Shown: positions 24,802 to 49,828 of the stretch, in pieces
How positions within the stretch are numbered: position 1 is the first letter of the stretch
Layout: the number at the start of each line of letters is the position of its first letter
Origin: Bacteroides caecigallinarum
GTDB lineage: Bacteria > Bacteroidota > Bacteroidia > Bacteroidales > Bacteroidaceae
DNA length: 64,000 bases
NCBI RefSeq assembly: GCF_016901995.1
Contig: NZ_JACJLE010000012.1
Span: 1-64,000, forward strand
Direction of reading: 5' to 3'
Notes under the pieces: generated by a model
Told to the model about the DNA's origin: nothing
Databases searched by the model: none
Seen by the model: the letters and a program-made list of their open reading frames with translations, nothing else
Position numbers and translations under genes: made by a program

Positions 24802-24931
24802 GCATACATAAAATATATTCTGTGCTTATATTTTCTCTAAATACAGCTTATGTTTTTATAAATACAAGTTATATTTATAAAGATACAAATTGTATTTACA
24901 TATATATGTATTGTATTTACAGAATATAAGC
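24802..24931. repeat. Phased, outward-facing 21-22-bp repeat array
   Basis: Centred on ATACAA-A-TTGTAT (24,883-24,895). To the right, on the plus strand, units begin at 24,890 and 24,911, both starting TTGTATTTACA; the second ends ATATAAGC. To the left, on the minus strand, units begin at 24,889, 24,867, 24,845 and 24,823; the second starts TTGTATTTATAAAAACATAA and the third contains TGTATTTAGAGAAAATATAA and ends AAGC. Spacing is 21-22 bp, two helical turns, so sites fall on one face of the DNA. The centre lies about 320 bp from the predicted start of the susC arm and 290 bp from that of the plus arm. Confidence 0.7.
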
Positions 24932-25166
24932 ATGCGAAATCTCTTTTTCATATATACATTATTAATATATTCTCAATATCATGTTTCAAAAAGTGTTCTC
25001 TCAGCATTTTCATAACGTTCAAACCACGCTTTAACAGCACATAAAACAACAATACACGGGCACCGGTTACATATCATACTGTCATTGATAACATTTTGGC
25101 AACACACCATAACAAACGCCTGTGCTACAGTTACGATTTATACCCTTATTTAAATATTATATTCGA

Positions 25167-25174
25167 TAACTTTG
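25167..25174 (+). promoter_or_regulatory. Promoter -7 element of the right PUL arm
   Basis: TAACTTTG is an exact TAnnTTTG match, giving a leader of roughly 43 nt before the ATG at 25,224. No TTTG is found at the -33 position, which suggests an activated promoter. Confidence 0.6.
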
Positions 25175-25223
25175 CAACAGTGATTTTAGAATTATTTTTG
25201 TTTAATCGTTAAACATTTTTATT

Positions 25224-27236
25224 ATGAGAAAGACTTTTATTTTAGGCTTTGGATTAGCAACCACATTGATTGCAACGTCTTGCGTAAAAGACAATAGCTT
25301 CAATCAGGAATTGATGAATGAAGGAATTGTCTTTAGCAGTTCAATCAGTTCGCGAGCAACAGACACTTCATTTGAAGCAAATGATGAGATTGGCATTTCC
25401 ATGAGTCCGGGAGATGCAAACAATGTACTTTATTCCACAACAGACGGAACCAATTTCACATCGACAGCTCCGATTACCTATAATATGGCTGGTGCCGTTG
25501 AAACTGTTGACTTCTACGGAGTATATCCATACAAAGAAAATTCAATAAGCAATAATGCTTATAATTTTACACTTTCAACAGATGCAGCAACACCATTGAC
25601 AAAAAATGACGTGATGATGGCAACGGCAAAAGGGGTAACATTAGGAGCTAAAAATGTAAGTTTGGATTTCAAACATAAATTGGTAAAAATAGTTGTCCAA
25701 CTTTCCAACGCTAACGGCCAGCCCATTACCGATGCACAATTAAAAATAAACAATCAACAGTTGGCTGGTACATTAAACATGACTGACGAAACTGTAACAG
25801 CAACCGACGCGGCAGATGATGAAATGCCTTTTGCATACAACACTTCAATTAGCGGACAATACCAAACAATTGTAATGCCGTCAGCCCCGGTACAAGGACG
25901 TTACATTGAAATTACACACAACGGCAAGACCTATACATTACCTGTAGATAATCAGGATTTCGTTTCCGGTAAAAAACTCACTTTCACGGCAACTCTTAAT
26001 GTAGATGGTACAGTAGAACAAGGAACACCTATAACTGTAGTTCCATCAGTGTCAGACTGGGATGAAGAGAAAATAAACTCCGGATGGCTTCTGAGTGGAG
26101 AAATCCAGGTAACAGGTAAAACACCAAAACAATTGGTCAGCAACATACAATTAAACAACGGAACAACCACTGTAATCAATAATTTTACTGGAACATTAAA
26201 CCAAGATGATGTTTACTGCATATCATATACATGTGGAAATGGCTCTTTATTATCAACAGATACACAGACTGCAAGTATTACCATAACTCCGGTAGCTGGT
26301 GGAACCGGAATAAGATACACTTTACAACAGCCTGAAGGAAAACTTCTGATTAAAGTTGGAGATGGCACAGCAGGAATAAGCATAAAAGCCAATGATAGCG
26401 ACATTACCTTAAATGAGGTAACTGTATATACGTCATCCAATAATGTGATTGTCCCCATTACTCTATGGGAAGGAAATGCGGAAAACAAAGAAGTATACAA
26501 TGTTTTAGGCCTGGTTAATATCCAAATTAAAGAAGCTGACTTGGCAGAACTTAAACTTGGATCAAAACTACGTATTTACTATACACCGTGCGACGCAAAT
26601 CAAGGAGCAAGCTTATATTCCGCACAATATACTGAAGGAAATTATACATCTTCAAAAACTATAATTTATGACAGCTATAATTCCATAGAACCTTACAATA
26701 ATGAATACATCACTGTTTATGTATTGAATCAATGGCTTAAAGAATTCAAAGAAAACAATAATTCAATAGGCATAAGCGGAACAAACTGTAAGATTACAAA
26801 AGTTATTCTCATCCCGGCATCAGGAGGTGAAGATGTAAATGAAAACATGTTATGGAAAGGAAGATGTCAAACATTTAGCATATGGAATAGTGTAAACTTA
26901 TGGCTACCTGAAGAAATCTCAACAGGAGGAACACTACGTGTCAATTTTGAACCTGCTCAACATAAAGTTGATGGAGATGGAGATGGAGCAATAATTACCA
27001 AGCCATTACTCGGAGGATTTGTAATAACATACCCTGAAGGTGGAGAGACACGAACAGAAATCCTCACACCGGTAGAGATTGAAGAAAATGCTACATCACA
27101 AGACTTTGTAATAACAGATGAAGTATTACAGAAATTACAGGAAAATATCTTTAACATAAACCGACTTTCAATATATGATAAAAATGAAACAGGCGGACTT
27201 GCAATTACCAGCGTAGAATACATCCCAGCCCAATAA
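25224..27236 (+). CDS. Fimbrillin-like surface lipoprotein with tandem C-terminal modules
   Basis: Lipoprotein of 670 residues (lipobox ATSC, Cys20, followed by VKDNS), probably surface-exposed. Residues about 30-290 resemble the fimbrillin/Mfa-like fold (for example FYGVYPY, NDVMMATAKGV, LDFKHKLVKIVV). A middle region (290-400) is followed by two related modules, about 410-533 and 540-670: each starts with LWEG or LWKG, has LR(I/V)x(Y/F)xP near its middle and ends with ITKVILIPA or ITSVEYIPA. No catalytic motif is visible. As first gene of the right arm, upstream of a GH5 and a fucosidase, it is best explained as an additional surface glycan-binding protein rather than a pilus subunit. The ligand is unknown. 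Confidence 0.75.
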   Translation: MRKTFILGFGLATTLIATSCVKDNSFNQELMNEGIVFSSSISSRATDTSFEANDEIGISMSPGDANNVLYSTTDGTNFTSTAPITYNMAGAVETVDFYGVYPYKENSISNNAYNFTLSTDAATPLTKNDVMMATAKGVTLGAKNVSLDFKHKLVKIVVQLSNANGQPITDAQLKINNQQLAGTLNMTDETVTATDAADDEMPFAYNTSISGQYQTIVMPSAPVQGRYIEITHNGKTYTLPVDNQDFVSGKKLTFTATLNVDGTVEQGTPITVVPSVSDWDEEKINSGWLLSGEIQVTGKTPKQLVSNIQLNNGTTTVINNFTGTLNQDDVYCISYTCGNGSLLSTDTQTASITITPVAGGTGIRYTLQQPEGKLLIKVGDGTAGISIKANDSDITLNEVTVYTSSNNVIVPITLWEGNAENKEVYNVLGLVNIQIKEADLAELKLGSKLRIYYTPCDANQGASLYSAQYTEGNYTSSKTIIYDSYNSIEPYNNEYITVYVLNQWLKEFKENNNSIGISGTNCKITKVILIPASGGEDVNENMLWKGRCQTFSIWNSVNLWLPEEISTGGTLRVNFEPAQHKVDGDGDGAIITKPLLGGFVITYPEGGETRTEILTPVEIEENATSQDFVITDEVLQKLQENIFNINRLSIYDKNETGGLAITSVEYIPAQ

Positions 27237-27288
27237 GAACAATAAAGACAGATAATTTTTTATTGTGGTAAACTCTTTATATTTTTCA

Positions 27289-27344
27289 CTTGCCGGTCTA
27301 TGGGGTATTGTAGGGGAATTCAATGCCTCATAGATTCCGGCAAG
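27289..27344 (+). terminator. Intercistronic hairpin, possible attenuator
   Basis: CTTGCCGGTCTATG (27,289-27,302) pairs with CATAGA-tt-CCGGCAAG (27,329-27,344): a 14-bp stem with a 2-nt bulge. Only a weak T-stretch follows. It sits between the fimbrillin-like gene and the GH5, so it may lower expression of the downstream enzymes or protect the upstream mRNA. Confidence 0.5.
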
Positions 27345-27384
27345 TAATTTTATAGGCATCACCAGATTAATCAAAACATCTTGC

Positions 27385-28590
27385 ATGAAAAGACATATAC
27401 TACTTTTAAAACTATGTATATTTATTTTAACTATAAATACATGGCCGGCACTACACGCCGTAACAAAATCAAAGATTCCTTATGAAACAGCCAAAGAATT
27501 GGGGCTAGGGTGGAACTTGGGCAATCAACTCGATGCTTTCCAAGACGGTAAAGCACAAGAAACGGTATGGGGAAATCCACCTGTGACACAAAAATTCTTC
27601 TATCGATTGGCCGAGGTCGGATTTACCTCCGTACGTATCCCAATAACATGGGTAGGACATTTTGGTGAGGGTCCTGAATATAAAATTTCGGACAGTTATA
27701 TGAACCGGGTAGCAGAAGTTGTAAACTACGCAGAAAATGCAGGCTTAAACACAATTATAAACATACACCATGACGGAGTGGAAAGTTACTTCTGGCTTGA
27801 CATCAAAAATGCAGCACTAAACGAAGAAGCAAACGATACTATTAAAAACATGATAAAGTCTATATGGACTCAGATAGCAAACCGTTTCAAGGATAAAGGT
27901 GATTTCCTTATATTTGAATCAATGAACGAAATCCATGACGGTAAATGGGGATGGGGAGCAAACCTTAGCGACGGTGGACGCCAATATGCTGTTTTAAATG
28001 AATGGAATCAAGTATTCGTAGATGCGGTACGTTCCACAGGAGGGAATAACGCAAACCGTTTTCTGGCAATACCTGGCTATGCCACCAATATAGATTTGAC
28101 AGTAAAACACTTCAAATTACCTAAAGACAAAACTCCCAACCGACTGATGGTGTCAATCCACTATTATGACCCAATGGATTACACAATGGGAGATATTTAT
28201 TCAGAATGGGGACATACAGCGAGTCAGGATATGAAATATAAAGGAATGGATGAAGAATATATGCAGGAACAATTCAAGTCAATAAAATCAACTTTCATTG
28301 ACAATGGTATTCCGGTTTATATAGGAGAAATGGGATGCAAATACCGTGAGGATAAACGCTCTGAAAGTTTTAGAGAATATTTTCTAGAATATCTTTGCAA
28401 GGCAGCCAAAGAAAACGGTATGGCTCCATTCTATTGGGACAACGGAAAAGACCGCTCATGCATTTTTGACCGGTCGAACGGGAAGCTGGTACATAACGGA
28501 AAACGTGTGATAAAACTTATGAAACGCGCTGTTTTTACAGACAAAAAATCATATACACTCCAAACAGTTTACGAAAACGCGCCACAATAG
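27385..28590 (+). CDS. Second GH5 endo-glucanase (secreted)
   Basis: GH5 enzyme of 401 residues with a type I signal peptide (about 1-25) and no lipobox, so probably periplasmic. The barrel occupies almost the whole mature chain; LGLGWNLGNQLD near the N-terminus and IHHDG are typical of subfamily 4. Acid/base Glu182 in ESMNEIHD, nucleophile Glu315 in YIGEMG. Unlike the surface GH5 at 16,603 it has no BACON domain. It may shorten imported xyloglucan oligosaccharides. It follows the fimbrillin-like gene and precedes GH29 by about 50 bp. Confidence 0.9.
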   Translation: MKRHILLLKLCIFILTINTWPALHAVTKSKIPYETAKELGLGWNLGNQLDAFQDGKAQETVWGNPPVTQKFFYRLAEVGFTSVRIPITWVGHFGEGPEYKISDSYMNRVAEVVNYAENAGLNTIINIHHDGVESYFWLDIKNAALNEEANDTIKNMIKSIWTQIANRFKDKGDFLIFESMNEIHDGKWGWGANLSDGGRQYAVLNEWNQVFVDAVRSTGGNNANRFLAIPGYATNIDLTVKHFKLPKDKTPNRLMVSIHYYDPMDYTMGDIYSEWGHTASQDMKYKGMDEEYMQEQFKSIKSTFIDNGIPVYIGEMGCKYREDKRSESFREYFLEYLCKAAKENGMAPFYWDNGKDRSCIFDRSNGKLVHNGKRVIKLMKRAVFTDKKSYTLQTVYENAPQ

Positions 28591-28641
28591 TCTCAATAAA
28601 ATAATACAGAAATAAATTTGTTAATAAAGATTTATTATGCG

Positions 28642-30168
28642 ATGAAAAAACTATTCTATTCTATCATTATGCTTTTGTTTGTTTCTTGTAGCACAAACGA
28701 GAAAAAAACAGATGTGATGTCCGTTGAATCTCCGAAAGGAACAAATGTATTTCAGGACAACTGGGAAAACATAGCCGAGAATTACCATTTCCCTGAATGG
28801 TTCTCTGATGCCAAATTTGGAATATTCATCCACTGGGGAGTATATTCAGTCCCCGCATACGGAAGTGAATGGTATTCCAGAAATATGTATCAGAAAGGGT
28901 CTGACGAATATAAACACCATATTGAGACATATGGCCCACAGGACAAATTCGGATACAAAGATTTCATACCAATGTTCAAAGCAGAGAAATTTGATGCAGA
29001 TGAATGGGTGAAATTATTCAAAGAAGCAGGGGCAAAATACATAGTGCCGGTTGCGGAACATCATGACGGCTTCGCCATGTATAATAGCGAACACAACCCA
29101 TGGAATGCAGTTAAAATGGGCCCCAAAAGAGATATTATAGGTTTATTGAAAAAAGCTGCGGAAAAAGAAGGGATAATATTCGGATTATCCAGCCACAGAC
29201 TTGAGAATGCATGGTTCTTTAACGGTGGTATGGAATTTCCATCTGATGTACAGGATACTACAATTACACTATATGGTAAGCGTTCAGAAAAAGAAGTGTA
29301 TTCAGACGAAGTATGTATAGACTTCCTTATACATACACATGAACTTATTGACAAATATCAACCACAGCTTATATATTTCGACTGGACTGTAAACAAGATA
29401 CCGGAATATTTTAACAAATTCCTTGCATATTATTACAATTGTTCGTTAGACTGGGGCAAAGGTGTTGTTGTTAACACAAAGCATGGCTATCCTACAAACA
29501 TACTGGTTGGAGACGTGGAACGTGGAAAACTAAATGAAATGAGAAAATATCCATGGCAGACTGACACCTCAATAGGTAAACATTCATGGGGATATGTAAA
29601 CGGAGAAGAAAATAAAACTCCTGACCAGATAATACACGACCTAGTGGATATAGTAAGCAAGAACGGCAATCTCCTGTTGAATATAGGGCCACACCCTGAC
29701 GGAACTATTACGGACGAACAAAAGCAAGTACTGCTATCAATAGGTAAATGGTTAAAGATAAACGGTGATGCCATATATGGTACACGTTGTTGGATTAAGT
29801 CCGGTGAAGGTGAATCAAAAGGTACTTCTGGTTCATTTTCCGACAATGAAGCAACAAAATATAATTGCCAAGATATACGTTTTACCACTAAAGACAACAC
29901 TCTATATGCCATCACTTTAGATTGGGGCAAACGAGTAATGATAAAATCTTTGAACAAGGATGTTGTACGTGATGCAAAGATTCTTAACGTGAAAATGCTC
30001 GGCTCTGATGAAAAAATAGCATGGCAACAAACAGACAAGGGCCTCTTAATAACTTTCCCTTCCAAAAAGCCATGCGAAACCGCATATTCATTTAAAATCT
30101 CTTTTGACAAAAAAGTAGGTGAAGGATTAGAATCCGAAATGATTGATATACCATTCAAACATGGATAA
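28642..30168 (+). CDS. GH29 alpha-L-fucosidase, lipoprotein
   Basis: Retaining alpha-L-fucosidase of 508 residues. The ATG at 28,642 is chosen because a lipoprotein signal starts there (lipobox FVSC, Cys16); a TTG eight codons upstream is less likely. The catalytic barrel starts with WFSDAKFGIFIHWGVYSVP, includes the substrate-binding HHDGFAMY, and has the nucleophile Asp247 in LIYFDW; a C-terminal beta-sandwich follows. It acts on terminal fucose and is the second fucosidase of the locus next to GH95, which is inverting. The gene ends the first plus-strand transcript, before a hairpin at 30,209. Confidence 0.92.
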   Translation: MKKLFYSIIMLLFVSCSTNEKKTDVMSVESPKGTNVFQDNWENIAENYHFPEWFSDAKFGIFIHWGVYSVPAYGSEWYSRNMYQKGSDEYKHHIETYGPQDKFGYKDFIPMFKAEKFDADEWVKLFKEAGAKYIVPVAEHHDGFAMYNSEHNPWNAVKMGPKRDIIGLLKKAAEKEGIIFGLSSHRLENAWFFNGGMEFPSDVQDTTITLYGKRSEKEVYSDEVCIDFLIHTHELIDKYQPQLIYFDWTVNKIPEYFNKFLAYYYNCSLDWGKGVVVNTKHGYPTNILVGDVERGKLNEMRKYPWQTDTSIGKHSWGYVNGEENKTPDQIIHDLVDIVSKNGNLLLNIGPHPDGTITDEQKQVLLSIGKWLKINGDAIYGTRCWIKSGEGESKGTSGSFSDNEATKYNCQDIRFTTKDNTLYAITLDWGKRVMIKSLNKDVVRDAKILNVKMLGSDEKIAWQQTDKGLLITFPSKKPCETAYSFKISFDKKVGEGLESEMIDIPFKHG

Positions 30169-30208
30169 AAACATGGATTTATTAATTTAATTTGTTGATG
30201 TATATGTT

Positions 30209-30241
30209 TTGCCCGGCTTAAATTATTTTTAAGTCGGGCAA
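30209..30241 (+). terminator. Hairpin terminator after GH29
   Basis: 12-bp stem with one G-T pair (30,209-30,220 with 30,230-30,241) followed by an AT-rich stretch. Separates the enzyme transcript from the regulator gene. Confidence 0.6.
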
Positions 30242-30265
30242 TTAATTATATATAGTTGTTATGTT

Positions 30266-30297
30266 TTTGGTTTTTTGCTTACTTTTTATTTCTTTTG
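30266..30297 (+). promoter_or_regulatory. Promoter of the HTCS gene
   Basis: TTTG (30,266-30,269), 20-bp spacer, TTCTTTTG (30,290-30,297), one base off TAnnTTTG. The predicted leader is about 20 nt. Independent promoter for the regulator is usual in PULs. Confidence 0.5.
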
Positions 30298-30323
30298 TAA
30301 AATAAAAAAATAAATTGATTTAT

Positions 30324-33300
30324 ATGAAAAGATTGTCTTTGGTCATATTATGGCAGATTATATTCGTTTCTTTGTATTCGCAACCTTTCAATTTCAAACA
30401 CCTTGAAGTGGCTGACGGATTATCCAACAATTCAGTTTATGCCATATTGAAAGACAAAGACGGTTTTATGTGGTTCGGAACCAACGCCGGACTGAACCGT
30501 TTTGACGGATATACATTCAAGGTTTTCCGTCATTTACATGATGATAAACATTCACTTCCTGACAATTACGTAAAAGAAATAATAGAAAGTCCCAATGGAA
30601 ATTTATGGATAAAAATGGGGACAGGATACACTATGTTCGATAAAGCGGCCAACCAGTTCAATAACGATACCAAAAATTTTATGAAAAAACTAGGCAGCAA
30701 TGGTTTACCTGAATGTATTTATGTAGATTCAAATGAACAGACATGGTTCTTTGTAGGATGGGAAGGTTTTTATCGTTATGACAAAAATAATAATACAAAA
30801 TTCGTTTCATTATATAACTTTGGATTGCCTGAATTTGGTGTCAGCGCTATCAATGAATGTAACGATGGAATTTTATTCCAATACAACAACGGAATACTTG
30901 TCTGCATTGACCCGTCTGAGATGAAACCTAAATGGATAAAGGATGAAATATCTCTTCAAATGAACGGGAAACAAGCATTTTATTCATTATTCGTAGATAA
31001 AGAACAATGCATTTGGATTTCCAATAATTCAAATTTATATGTATATGATACAGTTTCAGACGAATGGAGACACGATTTGGAAGAACCATGGAAAAGCCAG
31101 AATGATATTATACATTCAGTTTCACAAGATAACATTGGTAGAATATGGGTAGGCAAAGACTACGGAGGCATAGATGTTTTTGATAAAAAAACCGGTCATT
31201 TAACAAATCTTGTAAATGATAAAAATAATACTCGCAGTTTATCACATAACACCGTTTACAAAATATATACAGACAAATATGGAACAACATGGATTGGAAC
31301 ATATAAAAAAGGTATTTCATATTATAGCGAAAGTATGTTCAAATTCAACATGTATGAACTTGGTGATATTACATGCGTAGAACAGGCCGATGATAAGCAT
31401 GTGTGGTTAGGAACAAATAATGATGGACTATTTTTATGGAATATCGAAGAGGCGAAAGTAAAAAAACACTACAACTTTACCTCACCCATAGTTTCACTAT
31501 TAAAAACAAGTGATAACAGATTATGGATAGGCACATTCAACAATGGTCTGTACAGTCTTGACATAAAAGGATTAACCAAATACACAGTAAACAATAACGG
31601 GTTATTGGGCAATAACGTATGGTCCATGGCAGAAGCTGACGGAAAACTATGGATAGGTTTCTTAGACGGAGGAATCCAATATATTGATATGAAAAGCAAC
31701 AAACTTACCAAGTACGATGAAATAAATGGGATGGTACCATCACTATGCGTAACAAAAGACAATATCCTTGTAGTAGGAAAGCCACAATTAGCTTTAGTAG
31801 ATCTGGAAACACTCAAATTAAAAGAAACAATCAGAAATACATCTTTAAGCGGACATGGTGTAAATCAGGTATATAGTGACAGCCGTGGATTAATATGGAT
31901 AGCGACAAACGAAGGTCTTGAAATGTATAACAGAAAACGTCACGCAACTACAAATTTTACAGAAACAACAAATGCAGAAGGCGAAGTCATATCGGGTATA
32001 ACAGAAGATAATAATCACGATATCTGGGTTACATCTACACGTCACATGATCCACATAAAGGTATCAAAAGATGCAAACGGAAAATATGTATTCGAATCAC
32101 ACATTTACAATGAGAAAGACGGACTACAAAACTGCGATTTCAATCTAAGGGCAATTAAGACATTGAAAGACGGTACAATTATTGCAGGAGGACTTTATGG
32201 ACTAAACACATTTAATCCTGATAAAATACATTATAACACAATACCTCCTAAAATAATGTTTTCCGAATTATATCTGTTTAATCAGAAGATTGAAGCTGGA
32301 GTAGAATACAATGGCAATATCATACTGACTAAAGACATAAACTCAACAAGAAAAGTAGAACTTAAAAATACACAAAATATATTCTCATTAGAATTAAGTT
32401 CAGACAATTATAATCTACCTGAAAAAACATGCTATAAATACAAAATGGAAGGTGTAAATGATGAATGGCTTACATTGCCTATAGGATTAAACAGGCTTAC
32501 ATTCACAAATTTAACCCCGAAAAAATACATTTTATATGTAAAAGCCATAAACAGCGACGGATATGAAAGTATAGAAACTGCAAAACTGGAAATCGTGGTA
32601 CATCCTCCTTTCTGGTTATCTTGGTGGGCATATTCATGTTATACCTTAATAGCAATATGTATATTGTTATCAGCACGTAAAATGATTTTAAAACGTGAGC
32701 GTGAAAAATTCCGTTTACAACAAATAGAACAAGAGGCTGTAAAAAATGAAGAAATAAACCAAATGAAGTTTCGTTTCTTTACAAATATCAGCCATGAGCT
32801 TCGCACTCCTCTGACATTGATTATATCACCATTAGAAGACTTGTTGAAAAGTACAAAAGATGAATCACAAAAATCAATGCTCATGCTTATATACAGAAAC
32901 GCACAACGCCTACTGATACTTGTAAACCAGCTACTTGATTTCAGAAAAAGTGAAATGACAGGACATACTCTATCGTTATCAGAAAGTGATATCGTAGCAT
33001 ATATTCGCGAAGTATGTAACTCATTTCTGCTAATGGCAAACAAAAAACATATTCAGTTCTTTTTCTTTTCAGGAATAGACAATTTCCATATGGCATTCGA
33101 TGCTGATAAAATAAGTAAAATAGTTACTAACTTACTTTCAAACGCATTTAAGTTTACACCTGACGGCGGACGAGTAACTGTCATGATAGAACACATTGAG
33201 GGAACACAGGAAATGCTGGAAATAAAAGTATCAGATACAGGTATTGGTATCCCAGACTCTGAGAAAGAGCATATTTTCGAACGATTCTATCAAGCTGGAC

Positions 33301-34307
33301 ATAAAGGAATTGAAGAAAGTACAGGTAGCGGTATAGGACTTAGCCTGGTACGTGATTTTGTAAACTTACATGATGGAAGTGTAGAAGTATTCGACAATAT
33401 AGGGACAGGAACAGTTTTTGTAATACAACTTCCTGTAAAACATGTAGACTTAATATCGGAACATATTGTCAGTGCTGTTGAAAATACAAATGAAAAAAAT
33501 AATGAAGATACAGAAAAAGTAATAGAGCAAACAGACCGTAGAGACTTCCCATTAATACTAATAGTAGATGATAATGAAGATTTCCGTATTTTCATGCAAC
33601 ATAGTTTAGAATTACAATACAATGTTGAAATAGCATCCAATGGAGAAGAAGCATGGGAAATGATACAACAGAAACGCCCTGATCTTATTATAAGCGATGT
33701 AATGATGCCTGTAATGGATGGCATAGAACTATGCAAACTAATAAAAAACAATCAGCCAACAGCACACATACCTGTAATATTACTAACTGCACGACAGGCT
33801 GTTGAATCAAAAGTTGAAGGCTTGGAAATAGGTGCAGATGATTATGTAACCAAACCTTTTAACATGACGGTATTGACATTACGTATCAGGAAATTGATTG
33901 AGTTAAGTCATTACAAACAAATATCACACTCAACAATAGATCCTACGCCAAGCAACATAGTAATAACATCATTAGATGAAAAACTAGTAGAAAAAGCTAT
34001 TAAATACGTAGAAGACAATATATCTAGGAGTGAACTTTCAGTTGAAGAACTTAGTAGCGAACTTGGAATGAGTAGAGTACATCTGTATAAAAAGTTATTA
34101 CAGATAACTGGAAAAACGCCAATAGAGTTTATACGTACAATCAGACTGAAAAGAGCAGCTCAATTATTACGCGAAAGTCAGTTATATGTATCCGAGATTG
34201 CTTATGAAGTAGGATTTAACAACCCCAAATATTTCAGCAAATATTTCAAGGATGAATTTGGAGTTTTACCTTCAGCATATCAGTTAAAAGAGAAAAATAA
34301 CAAATAA
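30324..34307 (+). CDS. Hybrid two-component system regulator (HTCS)
   Basis: One-protein sensor and transcription activator, 1327 residues from the ATG at 30,324 (signal MKRLSLVILWQIIFVSLYSQ). Periplasmic part: two seven-bladed Reg_prop propellers (about 25-660; repeated (I/L)W(I/F)GT motifs) and a Y_Y_Y domain (about 690-760). One membrane helix (about 763-785). Cytoplasmic part: HisKA with phospho-acceptor His824 in NISHELRTP, HATPase with N-box NLLSNAFKF and DTGIGIP/GSGIGL, receiver domain with Asp1125 in IISDVMMP and Lys in VTKPF, and an AraC-type HTH (about 1220-1320). It should bind an oligosaccharide released in the periplasm and activate both PUL arms. All catalytic motifs are intact. 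Confidence 0.97.
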   Translation: MKRLSLVILWQIIFVSLYSQPFNFKHLEVADGLSNNSVYAILKDKDGFMWFGTNAGLNRFDGYTFKVFRHLHDDKHSLPDNYVKEIIESPNGNLWIKMGTGYTMFDKAANQFNNDTKNFMKKLGSNGLPECIYVDSNEQTWFFVGWEGFYRYDKNNNTKFVSLYNFGLPEFGVSAINECNDGILFQYNNGILVCIDPSEMKPKWIKDEISLQMNGKQAFYSLFVDKEQCIWISNNSNLYVYDTVSDEWRHDLEEPWKSQNDIIHSVSQDNIGRIWVGKDYGGIDVFDKKTGHLTNLVNDKNNTRSLSHNTVYKIYTDKYGTTWIGTYKKGISYYSESMFKFNMYELGDITCVEQADDKHVWLGTNNDGLFLWNIEEAKVKKHYNFTSPIVSLLKTSDNRLWIGTFNNGLYSLDIKGLTKYTVNNNGLLGNNVWSMAEADGKLWIGFLDGGIQYIDMKSNKLTKYDEINGMVPSLCVTKDNILVVGKPQLALVDLETLKLKETIRNTSLSGHGVNQVYSDSRGLIWIATNEGLEMYNRKRHATTNFTETTNAEGEVISGITEDNNHDIWVTSTRHMIHIKVSKDANGKYVFESHIYNEKDGLQNCDFNLRAIKTLKDGTIIAGGLYGLNTFNPDKIHYNTIPPKIMFSELYLFNQKIEAGVEYNGNIILTKDINSTRKVELKNTQNIFSLELSSDNYNLPEKTCYKYKMEGVNDEWLTLPIGLNRLTFTNLTPKKYILYVKAINSDGYESIETAKLEIVVHPPFWLSWWAYSCYTLIAICILLSARKMILKREREKFRLQQIEQEAVKNEEINQMKFRFFTNISHELRTPLTLIISPLEDLLKSTKDESQKSMLMLIYRNAQRLLILVNQLLDFRKSEMTGHTLSLSESDIVAYIREVCNSFLLMANKKHIQFFFFSGIDNFHMAFDADKISKIVTNLLSNAFKFTPDGGRVTVMIEHIEGTQEMLEIKVSDTGIGIPDSEKEHIFERFYQAGHKGIEESTGSGIGLSLVRDFVNLHDGSVEVFDNIGTGTVFVIQLPVKHVDLISEHIVSAVENTNEKNNEDTEKVIEQTDRRDFPLILIVDDNEDFRIFMQHSLELQYNVEIASNGEEAWEMIQQKRPDLIISDVMMPVMDGIELCKLIKNNQPTAHIPVILLTARQAVESKVEGLEIGADDYVTKPFNMTVLTLRIRKLIELSHYKQISHSTIDPTPSNIVITSLDEKLVEKAIKYVEDNISRSELSVEELSSELGMSRVHLYKKLLQITGKTPIEFIRTIRLKRAAQLLRESQLYVSEIAYEVGFNNPKYFSKYFKDEFGVLPSAYQLKEKNNK

Positions 34308-34357
34308 TACCCTTGCATGAAACAAACAGACCTCTGAGGAACAAGATAATACCCTTG
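34304..34357 (+). promoter_or_regulatory. 12-bp direct repeat upstream of GH31, possible operator
   Basis: ATAATACCCTTG occurs at 34,304-34,315 (overlapping the last codon of the HTCS gene) and at 34,346-34,357, exactly 42 bp apart (four helical turns). Each copy is followed by a related tail, cATGAAAC or tATAAAAC. The second copy ends 39 bp before the -7 element, the usual place for an activator site. Confidence 0.55.
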
Positions 34358-39833: not shown

Positions 39834-39847
39834 ATATATACATAACC

Positions 39848-42067: not shown

Positions 42068-42097
42068 AAAACTATAAATTACTTAAACCTATTACAC

Positions 42098-44038
42098 ATG
42101 AACAAATATTTACTATTCTGTACACTTGCTTTATCATGTTCTCTCCTGTCAGCACAACAGGCAACTGTCACAGGACCTGACAAAAACTTAAAAGTAGATA
42201 TATCTGTAAAATCAGGTAAACCATTTTACAGTGTTACTTATAAGAATAATATAATTCTAGAAAATTCTCCGCTTGGATTTATTACCGATATAGGTGATTT
42301 CAGTAATAACATATCTTACGTGGAACAAAAATCATCTTCAATAAATAAGACCTATGTTCAAGACAGAATAAAGCATTCGGTCATAAAATATAATGCAAAC
42401 GAATTGAAGATTACATTCTGTAATGCAGATAAACATCCTTTCGATGTGGTATTCAGAGTCAGCAATAATGACATAGCTTTCCGATATGAGATACCACAAC
42501 ATGGTGAAAGAGCTTCCATTGTAATGAAATCTGAAACTACCGGCTTTGATTTTCCAGAAAACACCACTACTTTCATTTGCCCTCAAAGTAAGCCTATGGT
42601 TGGATGGAAAAGAGCAAGACCAAGCTACGAAGAAGAATATAAACCGGACGAACCGATATCTACTCCATCACAATTTGGCGAAGGATACACTTTCCCGTGT
42701 CTTTTCCATATAGGAAACAACTGGGCACTGGTATCAGAAACCGGAGTAAGAAGCAAATATTGTGCTTCACATCTTAGCGATGCCAGTGATAATGGACTTT
42801 ATACAATAACATTCCCTAATGAAAACGAAATGAACGGACTTGGAAGTTCTACACCTGGACTAGCCCTTCCTGGAGAAACTCCATGGCGTACAATAACCGT
42901 TGGAGACAACTTAAAACCAATTGTAGAAACAACAGTTCCTTTTGATGTTGTTGAACCATTGTACGAACCTTCACAGAAATATGAATTCGGACGTTCCACT
43001 TGGAGCTGGATTGTATGGCAAGACCCAAGCATTAACTATGATGACCAGATAAAATTTATAGATCTTGCTGCACAAATGGGATATGAATTTACACTCATTG
43101 ACGGTGGATGGGAGAAAAACATAGGACGCAAACGAATGGAAGAACTTTTCAAATATGCCCAAAGCAAAGGCGTAGGAGTATTTGTATGGTACAACTCTAA
43201 CGGATATTGGAATGATGCCCCACAATGCGCCAAACAGTGCATGAGCAACTCTATAGACCGCAAGCGTGAAATGAAATGGCTACAGGAATGTGGTGTAAAA
43301 GGGCTTAAAGTAGATTTCTTCGGAGGAGACAAACAACAGATGATGGGGTTATATGAAGACATTCTAAGCGATGCTAATGACCATGGACTTATGATAATAT
43401 TCCACGGTTGTACCATCCCTCGCGGATGGGAAAGAATGTTCCCTAACTATGTAGGAAGTGAAGCCGTTCTTGCATCAGAGAACTTGATTTTTAATCAATA
43501 TTATGATGATAATGAAGCATATAATGCAACATTACATCCCTTTATCCGTAACACTATAGGTTGCATGGAGTTTGGTGGTACAGTATTAAATAAATACCTT
43601 AACAAAACAAATGATGGTGGAGCAATACGCCGTACGACAGACGTATTTCAAATTGCAACAGCCGTTTTGTTTCAAAATCCTATACAGAACTTTGCAATAA
43701 CTCCTAATAACATGTACGACGCACCTTCCTCCATGATAGAGTTTATGAAAGATGTTCCTACCACTTGGGATGAAACAAGATTTATAGACGGATATCCGGG
43801 TAAATATTGTGTTTTGGCACGCCGTCATAACAACAAATGGTATATAGCAGGAGTCAATGCATTGAAAGAGCCACTAAAACTGAAGCTAAATTTATCAATG
43901 CTTGATAACGGTAACGAATGCACATATTATTATGACAATAAAAACCGTCAACCTCAGAAAGAAGTTCTTAAAATTAAAGATACATCCTCTGTTAATGTTG
44001 TTATCCAACCCGAAGGCGGCATAGTTATTGTAAAATAA
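42098..44038 (+). CDS. GH97 glycosidase, retaining alpha-galactosidase type
   Basis: GH97 enzyme of 646 residues with a type I signal peptide (cleavage near LSAQ). The N-terminal beta-super-sandwich (about 22-280), (beta/alpha)8 barrel (290-550) and C-terminal beta-sheet domain are all present. The barrel carries Asp406 in GLKVDFF, the position of the nucleophile in retaining GH97 alpha-galactosidases, so it is unlikely to be the SusB-like inverting alpha-glucosidase type. Related enzymes can also cleave beta-L-arabinopyranose. Which side chain it serves in this locus is unclear. Last gene of the operon, ended by a strong hairpin. Confidence 0.9.
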   Translation: MNKYLLFCTLALSCSLLSAQQATVTGPDKNLKVDISVKSGKPFYSVTYKNNIILENSPLGFITDIGDFSNNISYVEQKSSSINKTYVQDRIKHSVIKYNANELKITFCNADKHPFDVVFRVSNNDIAFRYEIPQHGERASIVMKSETTGFDFPENTTTFICPQSKPMVGWKRARPSYEEEYKPDEPISTPSQFGEGYTFPCLFHIGNNWALVSETGVRSKYCASHLSDASDNGLYTITFPNENEMNGLGSSTPGLALPGETPWRTITVGDNLKPIVETTVPFDVVEPLYEPSQKYEFGRSTWSWIVWQDPSINYDDQIKFIDLAAQMGYEFTLIDGGWEKNIGRKRMEELFKYAQSKGVGVFVWYNSNGYWNDAPQCAKQCMSNSIDRKREMKWLQECGVKGLKVDFFGGDKQQMMGLYEDILSDANDHGLMIIFHGCTIPRGWERMFPNYVGSEAVLASENLIFNQYYDDNEAYNATLHPFIRNTIGCMEFGGTVLNKYLNKTNDGGAIRRTTDVFQIATAVLFQNPIQNFAITPNNMYDAPSSMIEFMKDVPTTWDETRFIDGYPGKYCVLARRHNNKWYIAGVNALKEPLKLKLNLSMLDNGNECTYYYDNKNRQPQKEVLKIKDTSSVNVVIQPEGGIVIVK

Positions 44039-44049
44039 AAATATAAAAT

Positions 44050-44100
44050 TAATGAAATTCATCTATAGTTTGAGACTCAAATCATAGATGAATTTCATTA
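44050..44100. terminator. Bidirectional terminator between GH97 and PspC-like gene
   Basis: Perfect 17-bp stem (44,050-44,066 with 44,084-44,100), with a further small inverted repeat TTTGAG-A-CTCAAA in its loop. Lies between convergent genes and marks the right end of the PUL. Confidence 0.8.
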
Positions 44101-44168
44101 ACCCCCAAAAGGAATAAATCATTTATTGCCAAGAACAAAGTCTTATTACATTATCATCATCTGTATTA

Positions 44169-44360
44169 TCACCATCTCCTCTCCGGCATCACAATCATAA
44201 GTATAAGAAATACTATCACTCCGGAAAATGCAGTAAATACAGTAAGCAAAGCATAGCCTACTCTTACTAAAGTAGTATCCAAACCGAAATACTCTGCCAG
44301 ACCGGCGCAAACTCCGGCTATCATGCGGTCGTTAGAACGCGAAAGTTTTCTATTATCCAT
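44169..44360 (-). CDS. PspC-domain small membrane protein
   Basis: 63-residue protein with a full PspC domain: KLSRSNDRMIAGVCAGLAEYFGLD, then a single membrane helix (VFTAFSGVIVFLILMIVMP). PspC proteins work in envelope-stress responses; in Bacteroidetes such short forms are common and their function is not established. The ATG at 44,360 is preferred over a GTG two codons upstream. It faces the PUL end and is divergent from the methyltransferase gene. Confidence 0.9.
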   Translation of the reverse strand: MDNRKLSRSNDRMIAGVCAGLAEYFGLDTTLVRVGYALLTVFTAFSGVIVFLILMIVMPERRW

Positions 44361-44490
44361 AATCACTGATTAATTTTTTATACGAAGATAAGAAAAAACA
44401 CTGAATATACATTCTTACTCTTAAAAACTTTTAAATAAATGCCATATATACCTATTTATTTTGTTATTTTGCAACAAATTAGGGATAAAA

Positions 44491-45393
44491 GTGAGTAAAC
44501 TATATATAGATAAGTGTCCCATCTGCGGACAAAGCCAGTTTGAAAAGGTTATGACATGTACTGACCACTATGCTACGGGCGAATCATTCGATTTGTGCCG
44601 ATGTACTAACTGTAACTTTTTGTTTACTCAAAATGCTCCTGTCGAATCCGAGATCGGCAGATATTACGAATCACCGGACTATATTTCACACAGCGATACT
44701 CACAAGGGCCTTATGAATTCGGTATATCATAAGGTAAGAAAGTATATGCTTTCCGAAAAAGCCAAACTCGTTGGTAAAAGCAGCAATCTTACATGCGGAA
44801 GAATTCTTGACATAGGAACAGGAACAGGATATTTTGCCGACAAGATGAAAAGAGAAGGCTGGCAGGTGTCTGCCATCGAAAAAAGTCCTCAGGCAAGAGA
44901 ATTCGCAAAAGAGCATTTCGGAATAAAGGTCAACCCTCCGGAAGATTTGTTTACCATTAAGGACAAAACATTCGATGTTATCACCCTATGGCACGTAATG
45001 GAACATTTGGAACAACTGAACCGTACATGGGAGACCTTGGGTAAAATACTTAAAGATAGCGGAGCATTGATAATAGCGGTACCTAATGCGGCGTCTTATG
45101 ATGCGGAAAAGTATAAAAATATGTGGGCAGCATATGATGTTCCAAGGCACTTATGGCACTTTACTCCTACTACAATCAAGAAAATAGCCTCAAAACATGG
45201 TTTTGTGATGACAGAAAGATATCCTATGCCATTCGATGCATTTTATGTGTCAATGCTTAGCGAGAAGTACATGAAAAGGTCGAATACCTTTATTCGAGGA
45301 CTATTGACAGGAGCAAAAGCATGGATAGCATCTATAAACCATAAGGACAAGAGCAGTTCAATGATTTATATATTCAGAAAGAAACAGTTATGA
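44491..45393 (+). CDS. Class I SAM-dependent methyltransferase with zinc-ribbon N-terminus
   Basis: Methyltransferase of about 300 residues starting at a GTG (44,491; VSKLYIDKCPICG). Two cysteine pairs (CPIC and CRCTNC) form a rubredoxin-like zinc ribbon; the Rossmann domain (about 95-220) has the SAM motif ILDIGTGTGYF and the post-motif LWHVMEHL. The target is unknown; similar proteins are found beside ftsX in Bacteroidales. The stop overlaps the ftsX start by 4 bp (ATGA), so translation is coupled. Confidence 0.85.
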   Translation: MSKLYIDKCPICGQSQFEKVMTCTDHYATGESFDLCRCTNCNFLFTQNAPVESEIGRYYESPDYISHSDTHKGLMNSVYHKVRKYMLSEKAKLVGKSSNLTCGRILDIGTGTGYFADKMKREGWQVSAIEKSPQAREFAKEHFGIKVNPPEDLFTIKDKTFDVITLWHVMEHLEQLNRTWETLGKILKDSGALIIAVPNAASYDAEKYKNMWAAYDVPRHLWHFTPTTIKKIASKHGFVMTERYPMPFDAFYVSMLSEKYMKRSNTFIRGLLTGAKAWIASINHKDKSSSMIYIFRKKQL

Positions 45394-46250
45394 GAAAACA
45401 TAAGTCTATATTCGACATGCAATTTATAACGGCAGGAATAAGTACCACAATGGTATTGTTTCTGTTGGGACTGGTAGTCTTTTTCGTACTGACGGCAAAC
45501 AATCTTTCTGTGTATATCAGAGAAAACATAGCCTTCAGCGCTATACTTGACGACGGAATAAAGGAGACTTCCATAATAAAGCTTCAGGAAAGCCTCAACA
45601 AGAAAGATTACGTTAAACAGACAGTCTATATATCGAAGGATCAGGCTCTTAAAGAACAAATAGAAGCCATGGGAACAGATCCTAGTGAATTTTTGGGACA
45701 TAATCCGTTCAACGCTTCCATAGAGATAAAGCTTAACGCTGGATATACTAATCCGGACAGCATAAAATGGATCGAGAAAGAGCTTATGGCTAACAAGAGC
45801 ATATTGGAAATAAGTTATCCTCAAAATCTGCTTGACTCCGTAAACAGGAACCTTCAGAAAATAAGCGCTTTCCTGCTGGGACTTGCAGTTCTGCTCTCTC
45901 TGATATCATTCTCGCTGATAAACAATACCATACGTCTGACCATCTATTCCAAAAGGTTTCTGATACACACCATGAAGCTGGTAGGTGCAAGCTGGGGGTT
46001 CATACGCCGTCCGTTCATCACCAGAAACCTGTGGATAGGAATACTTTCCGGAGCTGTGGCAAACGCCATTCTTACTGCATCGGCATATACGGCAGTGAAA
46101 TACGAGCCTGAACTTTTGGCTATCGTATCGCCTAAAAGCATAATGATTGTAGCGGCTGCAGTAATGGTATTCGGTATGATAATAACCACACTGTGCGCAT
46201 ATATATCAATCAACAAATATCTGCGCATGAAAATAAGCGAACTGTATTGA
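45390..46250 (+). CDS. ftsX: Cell-division protein FtsX
   Basis: FtsX of 286 residues, the permease-like partner of the FtsE ATPase, which controls peptidoglycan hydrolases at the septum. One membrane helix near residues 17-37, an extracytoplasmic domain (about 40-150) and three C-terminal helices (about 155-178, 205-228 and 245-270), the standard FtsX order. FtsE is not adjacent, which is usual in this phylum. Start overlaps the methyltransferase stop. Confidence 0.92.
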   Translation: MRKHKSIFDMQFITAGISTTMVLFLLGLVVFFVLTANNLSVYIRENIAFSAILDDGIKETSIIKLQESLNKKDYVKQTVYISKDQALKEQIEAMGTDPSEFLGHNPFNASIEIKLNAGYTNPDSIKWIEKELMANKSILEISYPQNLLDSVNRNLQKISAFLLGLAVLLSLISFSLINNTIRLTIYSKRFLIHTMKLVGASWGFIRRPFITRNLWIGILSGAVANAILTASAYTAVKYEPELLAIVSPKSIMIVAAAVMVFGMIITTLCAYISINKYLRMKISELY

Positions 46251-46271
46251 AAACAATAACATTATCAAGAT

Positions 46272-46517
46272 ATGGACAGAACTAAATTTGCATTCGACAA
46301 GACAAACTTCATCCTCCTGGGGATAGGGATGGCAGTCATCATCATCGGCTTTCTGCTGATGACAGGACCGGGTTCGACAGAAACAGCATTCGAGCCGGAC
46401 ATTTTCAGTGTGCGCCGCATCAAAGTGGCTCCTTTTGTATGCTTCGTAGGATTTATTTTCATGATATACGGCATACTGCGCAAACCAAAATCAATTTCAG
46501 AAAATATCGAAAACTAA
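46272..46517 (+). CDS. DUF3098 small membrane protein
   Basis: 81-residue protein with two membrane helices (about 12-31 and 53-70) and the segment FSVRRIKVAPFVCF between them, typical of DUF3098. It is found between ftsX and uppP in Bacteroidetes; function unknown. 21 bp after ftsX and 12 bp before uppP. Confidence 0.88.
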   Translation: MDRTKFAFDKTNFILLGIGMAVIIIGFLLMTGPGSTETAFEPDIFSVRRIKVAPFVCFVGFIFMIYGILRKPKSISENIEN

Positions 46518-46529
46518 GAATAACAAAAC

Positions 46530-47333
46530 ATGACTTGGATTGAAGCTATTATTCTGGGAATCCTTCAAGGACTCACAGAATACCTGCCTGTGAGCAGTAG
46601 TGGGCATCTTGCCATCGGCTCTGCACTTTTTGGAATAGAAGGTGAAGAAAACTTGACATTCACCATTGTGGTGCATGTGGCGACCGTACTTAGTACTCTG
46701 GTAATATTGTGGAAAGAGATAGACTGGATTTTCCGTGGTCTGTTCAAATTCCAGATGAACGAAGAGACAAAATATGTATTGAACATCATAGTTTCCATGA
46801 TTCCTGTGGGTATTGTAGGAGTGTTCTTCAAAGACTATGTAGAAGACATATTCAGTTCAGGACTTCTGATTGTAGGAATAATGCTGTTGGTCACTGCATC
46901 TCTGTTGGTATTCTCTTATTATGCCAAGCCTCGCACCAAAGAGAAAATCAGCATGAAAGACGCGTTCATTATCGGTTTGGCACAGGCTTGTGCAGTAATG
47001 CCGGGATTGTCACGTTCAGGCTCTACCATAGCCACAGGATTGTTATTAGGCAACAAGAAAGAGACACTTGCGCAATTCTCATTCCTTATGGTTATTCCTC
47101 CGATACTGGGTGAAGCATTATTGAGCGGAATGGAAATAGTGAAAGATGCGTCAGCAGCCAACGCAGAAATGTCCATTGGTGCACTTATTGCAGGTTTCCT
47201 TGCAGCCTTCATTTCCGGATGTATCGCCTGCAAATGGATGATTAACATTGTCAAGAAAGGAAAACTGGTTTACTTTGGTATTTATTGTGCCATAGCCGGA
47301 GCCATAACTATAGCTGTATCATTATTGAACTAA
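46530..47333 (+). CDS. uppP: Undecaprenyl-diphosphate phosphatase UppP (BacA)
   Basis: Integral membrane phosphatase of 267 residues that recycles undecaprenyl diphosphate to the lipid carrier for peptidoglycan and O-antigen synthesis. Both family motifs are present: [16 protein letters not shown] near the N-terminus and [14 protein letters not shown] near residue 160. About eight membrane helices. High-level expression of this protein gives bacitracin resistance in other bacteria. Sits in the ftsX-folK gene run. Confidence 0.96.
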
Positions 47334-47343
47334 AACGGTCTGT

Positions 47344-48051
47344 ATGCTGGATTTTAAGGAAGGAGAAATTCTATACATAGACAAACCGCTGAAGTGGACA
47401 TCATTTGCTGTAGTAAACAAGCTTAGATATCACATAAGCCGTAAACTGGGGGTGAAGAAAATAAAAGTGGGACATGCCGGAACACTCGACCCTCTTGCCA
47501 CAGGAGTGATGATTATATGCACAGGAAAGGCAACCAAGAGAATAGAGGAATTTCAGTATCACACCAAGGAATATATCGCCACTCTGCAACTGGGAGCAAC
47601 CACTCCGTCGTTCGACCTTGAAAAGGAGATAGATGCGACATATCCTACCGAACATATCACACGCGAAATGGTGGAGGAGGTACTGAAAAAATTCATAGGA
47701 ACCATAGAACAGGTGCCACCGGTATTCTCGGCATGTAAGGTTGACGGTAAAAGAGCATACGACCTTGCAAGAAAAGGCGATGAAGTTGAACTAAAAGCCA
47801 AGACACTTGTTATAGATGATATAGAGCTACTGGAATGCAACCTGCCTGAAATAAAAATCAGAGTAGTCTGCAGCAAAGGAACTTACATCAGGGCTCTGGC
47901 AAGGGATATCGGACAAGCCCTAGACAGCGGCGCACACCTCACGGGACTGATACGTACCCGAGTGGGAGATGTGAAACTGGAAGACTGTATGAAGCCTGAA
48001 GATTTCGAGCAATGGCTCGACAAGCAAGATATTAAAGTTACAAACGATTAA
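47344..48051 (+). CDS. truB: tRNA pseudouridine(55) synthase TruB
   Basis: Makes pseudouridine 55 in the T-loop of tRNAs. 235 residues, the short form without a C-terminal PUA domain that is normal for Bacteroidetes. Catalytic Asp49 in [11 protein letters not shown]; the [19 protein letters not shown] segment and the [13 protein letters not shown] motif are present. 10 bp after uppP and 19 bp before queA. Confidence 0.96.
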
Positions 48052-48070
48052 GGAAAGAAAGGAACAAAAG

Positions 48071-49126
48071 ATGAAACTGTCACAATTCAAATTCAAATTG
48101 CCGGATGAAAAAATTGCTCTGTATCCTACCGACTACAGAGACGAGTCGCGCCTGATGGTGGTACATAAATCAACAGGCGAAATAGAGCACAAAGTGTTCA
48201 AGGACATCCTGAATTATTTCGACGACAAGGATGTGTTTATCTTTAACGACACTAAAGTATTCCCTGCGCGTTTGTACGGAAACAAAGAAAAGACCGGAGC
48301 CAATATCGAAGTTTTCCTGCTCAGGGAACTGAACGAAGAGCTACGTCTGTGGGACGTTCTTGTCGATCCAGCACGTAAGATACGTATCGGTAACAAGCTG
48401 TATTTCGGCGAAGATGACTCTATGGTAGCCGAAGTTATAGACAACACAACTTCAAGAGGACGTACACTACGCTTCCTTTACGACGGTCCGCATGATGAGT
48501 TCAAGAAAGCCCTTTATGCGCTTGGCGAACCACCATTGCCTCCATTCATACACCGTCGTGCTGAAAAGATTGACGAGGAACGCTTCCAGAATATCTTTGC
48601 AAAGAATGAAGGAGCCGTAACCGTTCCTGCTTCAGGATTACACTTCAGCCGCGAGCTTATGAAGCGTATGGAAATCAAAGGTATCGACTTTGCATTCATC
48701 ACAATGCATGCAGGACTTGGCAACTTCCGCGAAATAGACGTTGAAGACCTTACAAAACATAAAGTTGATTCTGAGCAGATGTTTGTCAATGCAGAAGCAT
48801 GCCGCATCGTCAACAATGCCAAAGACAACGGTCACAATATCTGTGCCGTAGGTACTACTGTAATGAGGACAATCGAAACTGCAGTAAGTACAGACGGCCA
48901 CCTCAAGGAATACGAAGGCTGGACAAACAAGTTCATCTTCCCTCCATACGATTTCAGCGTGGCAAACTCAATGGTGAGCAACTTCAACATGCCTATGTCA
49001 ACAATGCTTATGCTGGTTTGCTCGTACGGTGGATACGAACTGATAATGGATGCCTACAACATCGCCCTTAAAGAAGACTACCGCTTCGGAACTTACGGCG
49101 ATGCAATGCTTATACTCGACAAATAA
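48071..49126 (+). CDS. queA: S-adenosylmethionine:tRNA ribosyltransferase-isomerase QueA
   Basis: Transfers the ribosyl part of SAM to preQ1 in tRNA to form epoxyqueuosine. 351 residues, full length. Characteristic motifs: [47 protein letters not shown] and [11 protein letters not shown]-dependent like the nearby metK product. 2 bp before folK. Confidence 0.97.
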
Positions 49127-49128
49127 TT

Positions 49129-49584
49129 ATGGCAAAAGTATTCTTGGGCCTTGGTACCAACCTTGGCGACAAAAGAAACAATCTGCTTACTGCAGTAAAC
49201 CATATAGAAGAAAAGATAGGGAGGGTAACTTCCCTATCTTCTTTTTATGTGACAGAACCTTGGGGATTCGAATCAGACAACTCATTCCTGAATGCAGCCC
49301 TTTGTGTGGATACATCGCTCGAACCTGCGGCTATTCTTCATATTATAAAAGAAATAGAAATAGAAATGGGCAGAACACAGAAATCTGTAAACAAAGTATA
49401 TTCCGACCGACCTATTGACATCGACATCCTCCTTTACGATGATATGATTATGAAGTCAGATGAACTGACCATCCCCCACCCGCTTATGACAGAAAGGGAT
49501 TTCGTTATGAAACCATTAGTAGAAATTGCAGGTGATGCCGTACATCCTGTTTTTAAGAAGAGACTAAAAGAAATATCACATTAG
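49129..49584 (+). CDS. folK: Hydroxymethyl-dihydropterin pyrophosphokinase FolK
   Basis: Folate-synthesis enzyme that adds pyrophosphate from ATP to 6-hydroxymethyl-7,8-dihydropterin. 151 residues, normal length. Motifs GLGTNLGDK at the N-terminus, FYVTEPWG, EMGRTQ and RPIDIDILLYD. Last gene of the run, ended by the hairpin at 49,603. Confidence 0.95.
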   Translation: MAKVFLGLGTNLGDKRNNLLTAVNHIEEKIGRVTSLSSFYVTEPWGFESDNSFLNAALCVDTSLEPAAILHIIKEIEIEMGRTQKSVNKVYSDRPIDIDILLYDDMIMKSDELTIPHPLMTERDFVMKPLVEIAGDAVHPVFKKRLKEISH

Positions 49585-49602
49585 TGTAGAGTGAATTTCT
49601 TA

Positions 49603-49645
49603 TATAATTTGAGCTGTCGCAAATTATTCGACAGCTCAAATTATA
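49603..49645. terminator. Terminator after folK
   Basis: Long stem of about 17 bp (49,603-49,619 with 49,629-49,645) built from TATAATTTGAGCTGTCG and its complement, with a 9-nt loop. Downstream is AT-rich without a clean T-run. The hairpin is symmetric and could act both ways. Confidence 0.75.
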
Positions 49646-49676
49646 ATATCAACACAAAACAAAAAAACTAAAACAT

Positions 49677-49828
49677 CTTGAATAAATCTATAAACCACAC
49701 TGTTGTTTATATAAATATCACTGTGATTTTTATAAACAACAGTGTTGTTTATAAAAACACAAGTTTGATTTATAGGTTACGACAGCATATTTATAAGTTT
49801 TTTCCAGCACATCTATAACTTTCCTAGG
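49677..49828. repeat. Phased, outward-facing 21-22-bp repeat array upstream of metK
   Basis: Centre: TATAAACAACA and TGTTGTTTATA around a single G at 49,742. To the right, plus-strand units start at 49,743, 49,764, 49,786 and 49,808 and end in ACAAG, GACAG, CCAG and CTAGG. To the left, minus-strand units start at 49,741, 49,720 and 49,699 and end in CACAG, AACAG and CAAG. The unit begins T(G/T)(T/A)(T/G)(G/A)TTTATA. Spacing of 21-22 bp places the sites on one DNA face. The unit GTTGTTTATAAAAACACAAG closely matches TGTATTTATAAAAACATAAG in the array upstream of susC. Confidence 0.75.

Follow-up and report, generated by a model that had tools for sequence, protein, structure and literature searches.

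Two repeat arrays in a 64,000-nucleotide stretch of Bacteroides caecigallinarum (contig NZ_JACJLE010000012.1, positions 1 to 64,000; hereafter the window), one in a polysaccharide utilization locus (PUL) and one upstream of the S-adenosylmethionine (SAM) synthetase gene metK, are both copies of an apparently undescribed dispersed DNA element. The core of this element is 96 bp long and made of four palindromes set 21 bp apart from centre to centre, with weaker 22-bp modules on both sides. On the strength of sequence comparison, and with a probability of about one in two, we propose that a sequence-specific HU-HIG protein recognises each element as an array of sites; in this protein an HU DNA-bending domain would be joined to a winged helix, and it would autoregulate and structure DNA. 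A first-pass annotation had seen one repeat family at the two loci and had named a global DNA-binding protein, a chromosome-organising element or a decayed dispersed repeat as the likelier explanations; a dispersed repeat together with a global DNA-binding protein gives the best account, and the observation itself is correct but understated the extent of the family.

Both repeat units quoted in that annotation are present where it placed them, 16 of 20 positions being identical between them in a count made by eye, and the PUL-side and metK-side arrays belong to one family, their cores aligning without gaps over 96 bp. The two-turn period that it described also holds, at 21 bp, whereas the palindromic centre with outward-facing units does not, the arrangement being one of four tandem dyads. 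Tandem Repeats Finder reports the 21-bp period at both loci and ranks these arrays highest in the window, with a score of 70 at 24824-24887 on the PUL side and of 86 at 49689-49759 on the metK side (110 at 49689-49771 for the doubled period of 42 bp), against a best score of 54 elsewhere; the autocorrelation maximum lies at 21 bp at both loci. A common 14-mer, with up to two mismatches allowed, has eight matches over both strands where 1.9 are expected and none of 100 shuffles reaches eight, and seven of the eight fall inside the two arrays. The parts of the two copies are listed below, with E values from a sequence-only model (R1) and from a structured model built from 46 copies (R2; alignment A3).

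49685 to 49780, plus strand: metK-side core, four 21-bp dyads centred at 49700, 49721, 49742 and 49763 (R1 E 9.8e-21, R2 E 9.0e-10).
49640 to 49684, plus strand: metK-side left flank modules in 22-bp steps, putative limits projected from the family profile.
49781 to 49824, plus strand: metK-side right flank modules, putative limits, likewise projected.
24830 to 24925, minus strand: PUL-side core, four 21-bp dyads centred at 24910, 24889, 24868 and 24847 (R1 E 2.2e-16, R2 E 1.1e-6).
24926 to 24970, minus strand: PUL-side 5' flank modules, putative limits from the family profile.
24786 to 24829, minus strand: PUL-side 3' flank modules, putative limits from the family profile.

The core in the first Phocaeicola half-site dialect can be written as TCTRTAAA, four dyads at 21-bp spacing, and TTTATAGA. 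With two to three weaker modules per side the whole element measures about 190 bp in Phocaeicola and about 250 bp in Bacteroides. Dyad cells pair at 80.6%, compared with 69.5% in shuffles (none of 500 as high) and far lower values in slid controls as well, and the entire unit is also mirror-symmetric. Mismatches within the dyads comprise 112 G:T and 128 A:C, and this absence of wobble bias marks the symmetry as one of double-stranded DNA, not of RNA. Four dyads are usual and variants run from one to five: L244 is 21 bp shorter and has three, L241 has a fifth, and G000 holds a one-dyad remnant at the L089 site (G and L numbers denote genomes and loci). Among 67 cores, a simple symmetry score marks 14 as having one poor dyad (at most 4 of 10 pairs) and two as having a possible fifth; this set consists of A3, the remaining G007 copies and five of the 22 in G023. 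A3 itself omits L013, L085, L093, L095 and L107, which are cut or weak; L100, L101 and L105, whose cores are the same as those of G018 copies already in it; L120; and the weak matches L113-L117. In two Phocaeicola dialects flank conservation recurs 22-23 and 44-46 bp outside the core, and in the symmetrised profile behind the flank limits given above it recurs at 22-23 and 44-45 bp, fading by about 48 bp. In Bacteroides it recurs at 22, 44 and 66 bp, and near 80 bp many units finish with CTATTAATAG or a variant of it. When the flank information profiles are compared among the three sets, the correlation is highest in register, none of 59 shifts equalling it in any comparison. Spacing and symmetry are mostly intact across copies, and the suggestion of a decayed repeat is not upheld.

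With the metK array as query, BLASTN located eight more places in the window genome, a Phocaeicola, whose nine complete copies align gap-free over 96 bp; R1 yields ten strong copies there, including one truncated where its contig stops, before a sharp fall to partial or weak matches. Twelve of 60 genomes were matched by R1, the window genome counted, all of the same genus, and none of 24 genomes from other families of the order, a negative that does not amount to absence because R1 knows one dialect. With a strict threshold, matches occur in 14 of 61 genomes of the genus. R2 was positive in six of 12 genomes searched (22 matches in G023, 20 in G007, nine in G000, four in G030, three in G012 and two in G034), and genomes that it passes over may carry dialects that it does not see. 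A pattern scan returned eight named records, six of them Phocaeicola, and Candidatus Phocaeicola faecipullorum has the same array as the C197 copy of the window genome. One Bacteroides finegoldii assembly carries the element in 12 records deposited as plasmids, with at least 12 copies, and R2, although trained on Phocaeicola, matches all 12 loci fetched from it end to end. The profile scan that the first-pass annotation had called for finds matches far beyond two places.

The B. finegoldii plasmid entries (PLSDB NZ_OY7259xx, one assembly) look like pieces of chromosome, and inspection by eye suggests bacterial chromosome also for MT835908 and MT836595, two records labelled as fecal phage. In a further phage record, MT836976, the region of the element is 95.6% identical over 821 bp to that on the glmM side in B. 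finegoldii. A phage or plasmid operator was rejected, three patterns giving no match in viral contigs, and a Cyclobacteriaceae match (L187) is a chance one with no array. Contigs end in or at the core in three places (C5 and C333 of G015, C199 of G000), and palindromic cores seem to break assemblies.

Our reasons for naming HU-HIG as the candidate reader are that the element lies upstream of its gene in six genomes and that HU-HIG identity is low between genomes of differing dialect. In G007 an open reading frame (ORF) 53 bp from one element encodes HU-HIG (PF18291), and in six genomes (G022, G015, G018, G034, G007 and B. finegoldii) an HU-HIG gene has an element on its 5' side, at 53-93 bp, or at 440 bp in G034, from which one place was fetched twice. 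By curated score all six linked proteins (that of B. finegoldii being WP_022275387.1) are members of the family, at 66.3-91.9 bits (E 3.4e-18 to 4.2e-26) against a PF18291 gathering cut-off of 26.2. When three of them were compared by BLASTP with 2,883 ORFs of the fetched loci (complete, ATG-started, at least 80 aa, ORFs cut by locus ends being excluded), homologues appeared solely beside elements; an HU-HIG profile search of the same ORFs added none, and there were none among 1,534 ORFs in 40 stretches of 20 kb chosen by coordinate in G007. HU chains from the PDB match positions 29-80 of the HU-HIG profile, and the C-terminal region, modelled at 141-209 as H-H-H-E-E with blocks of predicted local distance difference test (pLDDT) 74-88, is predicted to be a winged helix. 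HU-HIG proteins form an HU family of the Bacteroidetes, reportedly defined by Burroughs et al. in 2017.

Each lineage has its own half-site sequence, or dialect. Of the half-sites of G007, 136 of 160 have CACA as the four bases beside the dyad centre, and of those of B. finegoldii 68 of 88 have GCAA, AAAG or GAAG; these bases are CG-rich in G034 and mixed in G000 and G022. NACA half-sites are absent from G018 (0/80) and G015 (0/48), and two or more of them occur in 13 of 21 elements of G000 and G022 as opposed to none of 16 in G018 and G015 (p 7e-5). At the C3 locus, a site common to four relatives with flanks alignable up to the core, the later dyads of G018 and G015 are rewritten, and G000 and G018 differ at 23 of 96 core sites compared with 11 of 155 sites in the adjoining flank (p 2e-4). 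Between close relatives the dialect switched in all the copies as a set, including at a site that they share and whose flanks are conserved. The protein also differs: HU-HIG of G022 is 57.6 and 60.2% identical to those of G018 and G015, which use a differing dialect, against medians of 91.3 and 90.9% over 11 and 9 ORF pairs, with the C-terminal part (0.42-0.47) less conserved than the HU part (0.65-0.67). Between G018 and G015, of the same dialect, HU-HIG identity is 91.7% against a median of 97.7% over 33 pairs.

Several observations weigh against HU-HIG as the reader. Five of the 33 G018-G015 ORF pairs lie below the HU-HIG value, and each G022 comparison has two further pairs with identities similar to that of HU-HIG or below it (33.7 and 57.9; 33.3 and 64.3), the latter pairs perhaps being non-orthologous best matches. 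The G022 HU-HIG gene stands in a different neighbourhood from that of G018 and G015, and the pair may therefore be paralogues. Covariation over the whole alignment is largely dialect, and covariation of dyad mates inside one genome is weak in G000 and G022 and nil in G018 and G015. Winged-helix fold matches to the C-terminal region are weak (best E 0.017, none reaching 0.001), and the full-protein model is poor, with a mean pLDDT of 58 and a predicted template modelling score of 0.36. The stretches fetched around the copies of the window genome yielded no HU-HIG gene, the rest of that genome not having been searched. Alternatively, the linked copy could simply mark HU-HIG as a target of some other regulator.

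If HU-HIG does read the element, its winged helices would read the half-sites, four dimers would be seated on one face of the helix, and the HU parts would bend or wrap the DNA via the flank modules. The protein would in this way control its own gene, and elsewhere the bound array would form a compact nucleoprotein node acting on local transcription or chromosome structure.

Of the alternatives, the one that survives best is a non-autonomous mobile element resembling a miniature inverted-repeat transposable element (MITE), a symmetric unit copied by a transposase in trans with the palindromes as its binding sites; we consider this unlikely. It would suit the number of copies, up to 22 per genome, and their turnover. 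Presence and absence at orthologous sites is confirmed at three places, gain and loss not being separable at each: the hsp20-cbpA gap (genes named by eye) has a unit of about 155-168 bp in G000 and none in G015 and G018; the L089 site has four dyads in G018, one in G000 and none in G022, while two G015 contigs stop at the core; and the metK site has the element in G000 and G015, with the core missing in G018. Comparison of the filled and empty hsp20-cbpA sites shows, in this single case and by eye, that the unit edges carry a direct repeat, imperfect and about 16 bp long. Twelve neighbour genes could be placed in G007 from 18 pieces taken from elements of G000, G015, G018 and G022, and beside none of them does G007 carry an element in the corresponding place; at mnmA both lineages have an element, at opposite ends of the gene. 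The many B. finegoldii copies that terminate in CTATTAATAG or a variant would also suit a mobile unit, as would L238 and L241, which are different loci of that species with 507 bp in common at 87% identity and with arrays enclosed by inverted GGTGAAGGG-type repeats, which gives the impression of an element set inside a larger repeat. However, 14 Bacteroides copies examined have no consistent target-site duplication, conservation in Phocaeicola peaks in the core and fades outward to the ends, diverged copies retain spacing and symmetry, and the recurrently linked gene encodes HU-HIG and not a transposase. The site-to-site differences in presence and the shared 507 bp imply that units are copied or moved. 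Core paralogues have mean identities of 0.67-0.83, the closest pair reaching 0.948 (G007), and in four orthologue pairs of G007 and G023 core identity is 0.85-0.96. In G022 one and the same sequence follows the elements L075 and L081 on the right, close to contig ends, which looks as though a further repeat, possibly an insertion sequence (IS), had landed beside both.

A marker of chromosome position for division or segregation, of the Noc, SlmA or matS type, is a rather doubtful alternative that draws on a single genome. In G007, where GC skew switches near 3.80 Mb and a single exact parS lies at 3.858 Mb, all 20 elements found are within 1.22 Mb of parS, and a stretch of 1.69 Mb, containing the terminus by a noisy skew, is free of elements (longest-gap p 6.7e-4). 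The Rayleigh test is less striking, at p 0.018, and the bias does not recur when the neighbour genes of the other lineage are mapped on G007, 3 of 12 lying beyond 1.22 Mb against 4.8 expected if uniform; units of several dyads are, moreover, unlike the single palindromes of SlmA and Noc. Origin-side clustering, on which the chromosome-organising idea of the first-pass annotation would draw, is accordingly a lead from one genome. Exactly one perfect parS 16-mer is present in each of G000, G064, G007, G068, G017, G023 and G011.

A hybrid two-component system (HTCS) operator specific to PULs had been disfavoured in the first-pass annotation, rightly, as copies adjoin many non-PUL genes, among them metK, mnmA, clpS and dnaK (by eye) and topA, glmS and recA (by family search). 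The array might instead serve as the operator of an ordinary global transcription factor for a stress or metabolic regulon, with HU-HIG as just one target, which we regard as improbable. The 67 cores comprise 25 between divergent ORFs and 26 between tandem ones, as such an operator would have it, together with nine convergent, five at a contig or locus edge and two under an ORF, and proteostasis-like neighbours (hsp20-cbpA, clpS, dnaK and htpG by eye, groES-groEL as annotated) recur at L015, L014, L092, L078 and L241 in several lineages. Yet targets vary between lineages, complete elements also occupy convergent 3' sites, the number of dyads is nearly constant, and the 38 of 40 G007 neighbour ORFs that were scanned include no member of a chaperone or heat-shock family, with 12 of them matching nothing; a heat-shock regulon, suggestive at five loci, is not borne out in these 38. 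An element also lies beside or near recA in G007 (L120) and B. finegoldii (L242), and an ATPase-like ORF adjoins one in G000, as it does in G018 and G015 judging from the alignment, and is not at that place in G022 (L011 versus L077). The idea that the arrays are hairpins or terminators conserved as transcripts can hardly be right: folds of four copies are stable on both strands (z -4.65 to -9.22), but the balance of G:T and A:C mismatches contradicts it and complete elements also occur between divergent ORFs.

Within the window, the PUL-side core sits between divergent ORFs starting at 24506 (minus strand) and 25224 (plus strand), and the metK-side core has on one side an ORF whose end is at 49584 and on the other the likely metK promoter, whose -7 box is probably TATCTTTG at 49880-49887 (plus strand), about 100 bp downstream of the core. 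One further feature lies outside the element and is given as context.

49898 to 49957, plus strand: SAM-II riboswitch aptamer of metK (RF01726, 65.9 bits, E 1.7e-10).

This is the sole Rfam match of the window at gathering score. With a SAM-II riboswitch directly upstream of metK, control of the gene by SAM needs no further element.

Among known systems, REP and BIME sequences (repetitive extragenic palindromes and bacterial interspersed mosaic elements) are dispersed intergenic palindromic units tied to RAYT transposases (REP-associated tyrosine transposases) or gyrase; they resemble the present element in being dispersed intergenic palindromes and differ in lacking a core of four dyads phased at 21 bp. 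The sites of SlmA, Noc and MatP are single short palindromes, dispersed in tens of copies and each read by one protein, and they share with our element the character of dispersed palindromic chromosomal sites, whereas here the units are four-dyad arrays with a positional bias in one genome only. A search of the open-access literature found no description of this element, nor of a DNA target of HU-HIG. The BrickBuilt MITE of Porphyromonas gingivalis is intergenic and dispersed, with 19 copies in one strain, and has 23-nt direct repeats, an unlike leader and tail and IS-like terminal repeats (PMC4596501). The likeness is that of a dispersed intergenic element of Bacteroidales with tandem units of about two helical turns, and the difference lies in the 21-bp inverted units and mirror-symmetric flanks seen here, with no 23-nt direct repeat, leader or tail.

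Building on HU-HIG as the candidate reader, we tentatively suggest, a shade below even odds and from patterns in sequence, a form of lineage-private addressing. HU-HIG and its genome-wide phased arrays would co-evolve as lock and key, the recognition domain and the scattered copies shifting dialect in step, the dialects would keep the arrays of related genomes apart, and the bound arrays would be nodes of chromosome architecture. If this is true, the orphan HU-HIG family gains its first defined DNA target. The candidate target is concrete, with predictions down to single bases, and is available in B. finegoldii, a named species whose proteins are annotated. Close relatives in which the protein and the dispersed DNA sites differ together provide a natural experiment, and, if confirmed, the nucleoid organisation of abundant gut bacteria would be open to direct test.

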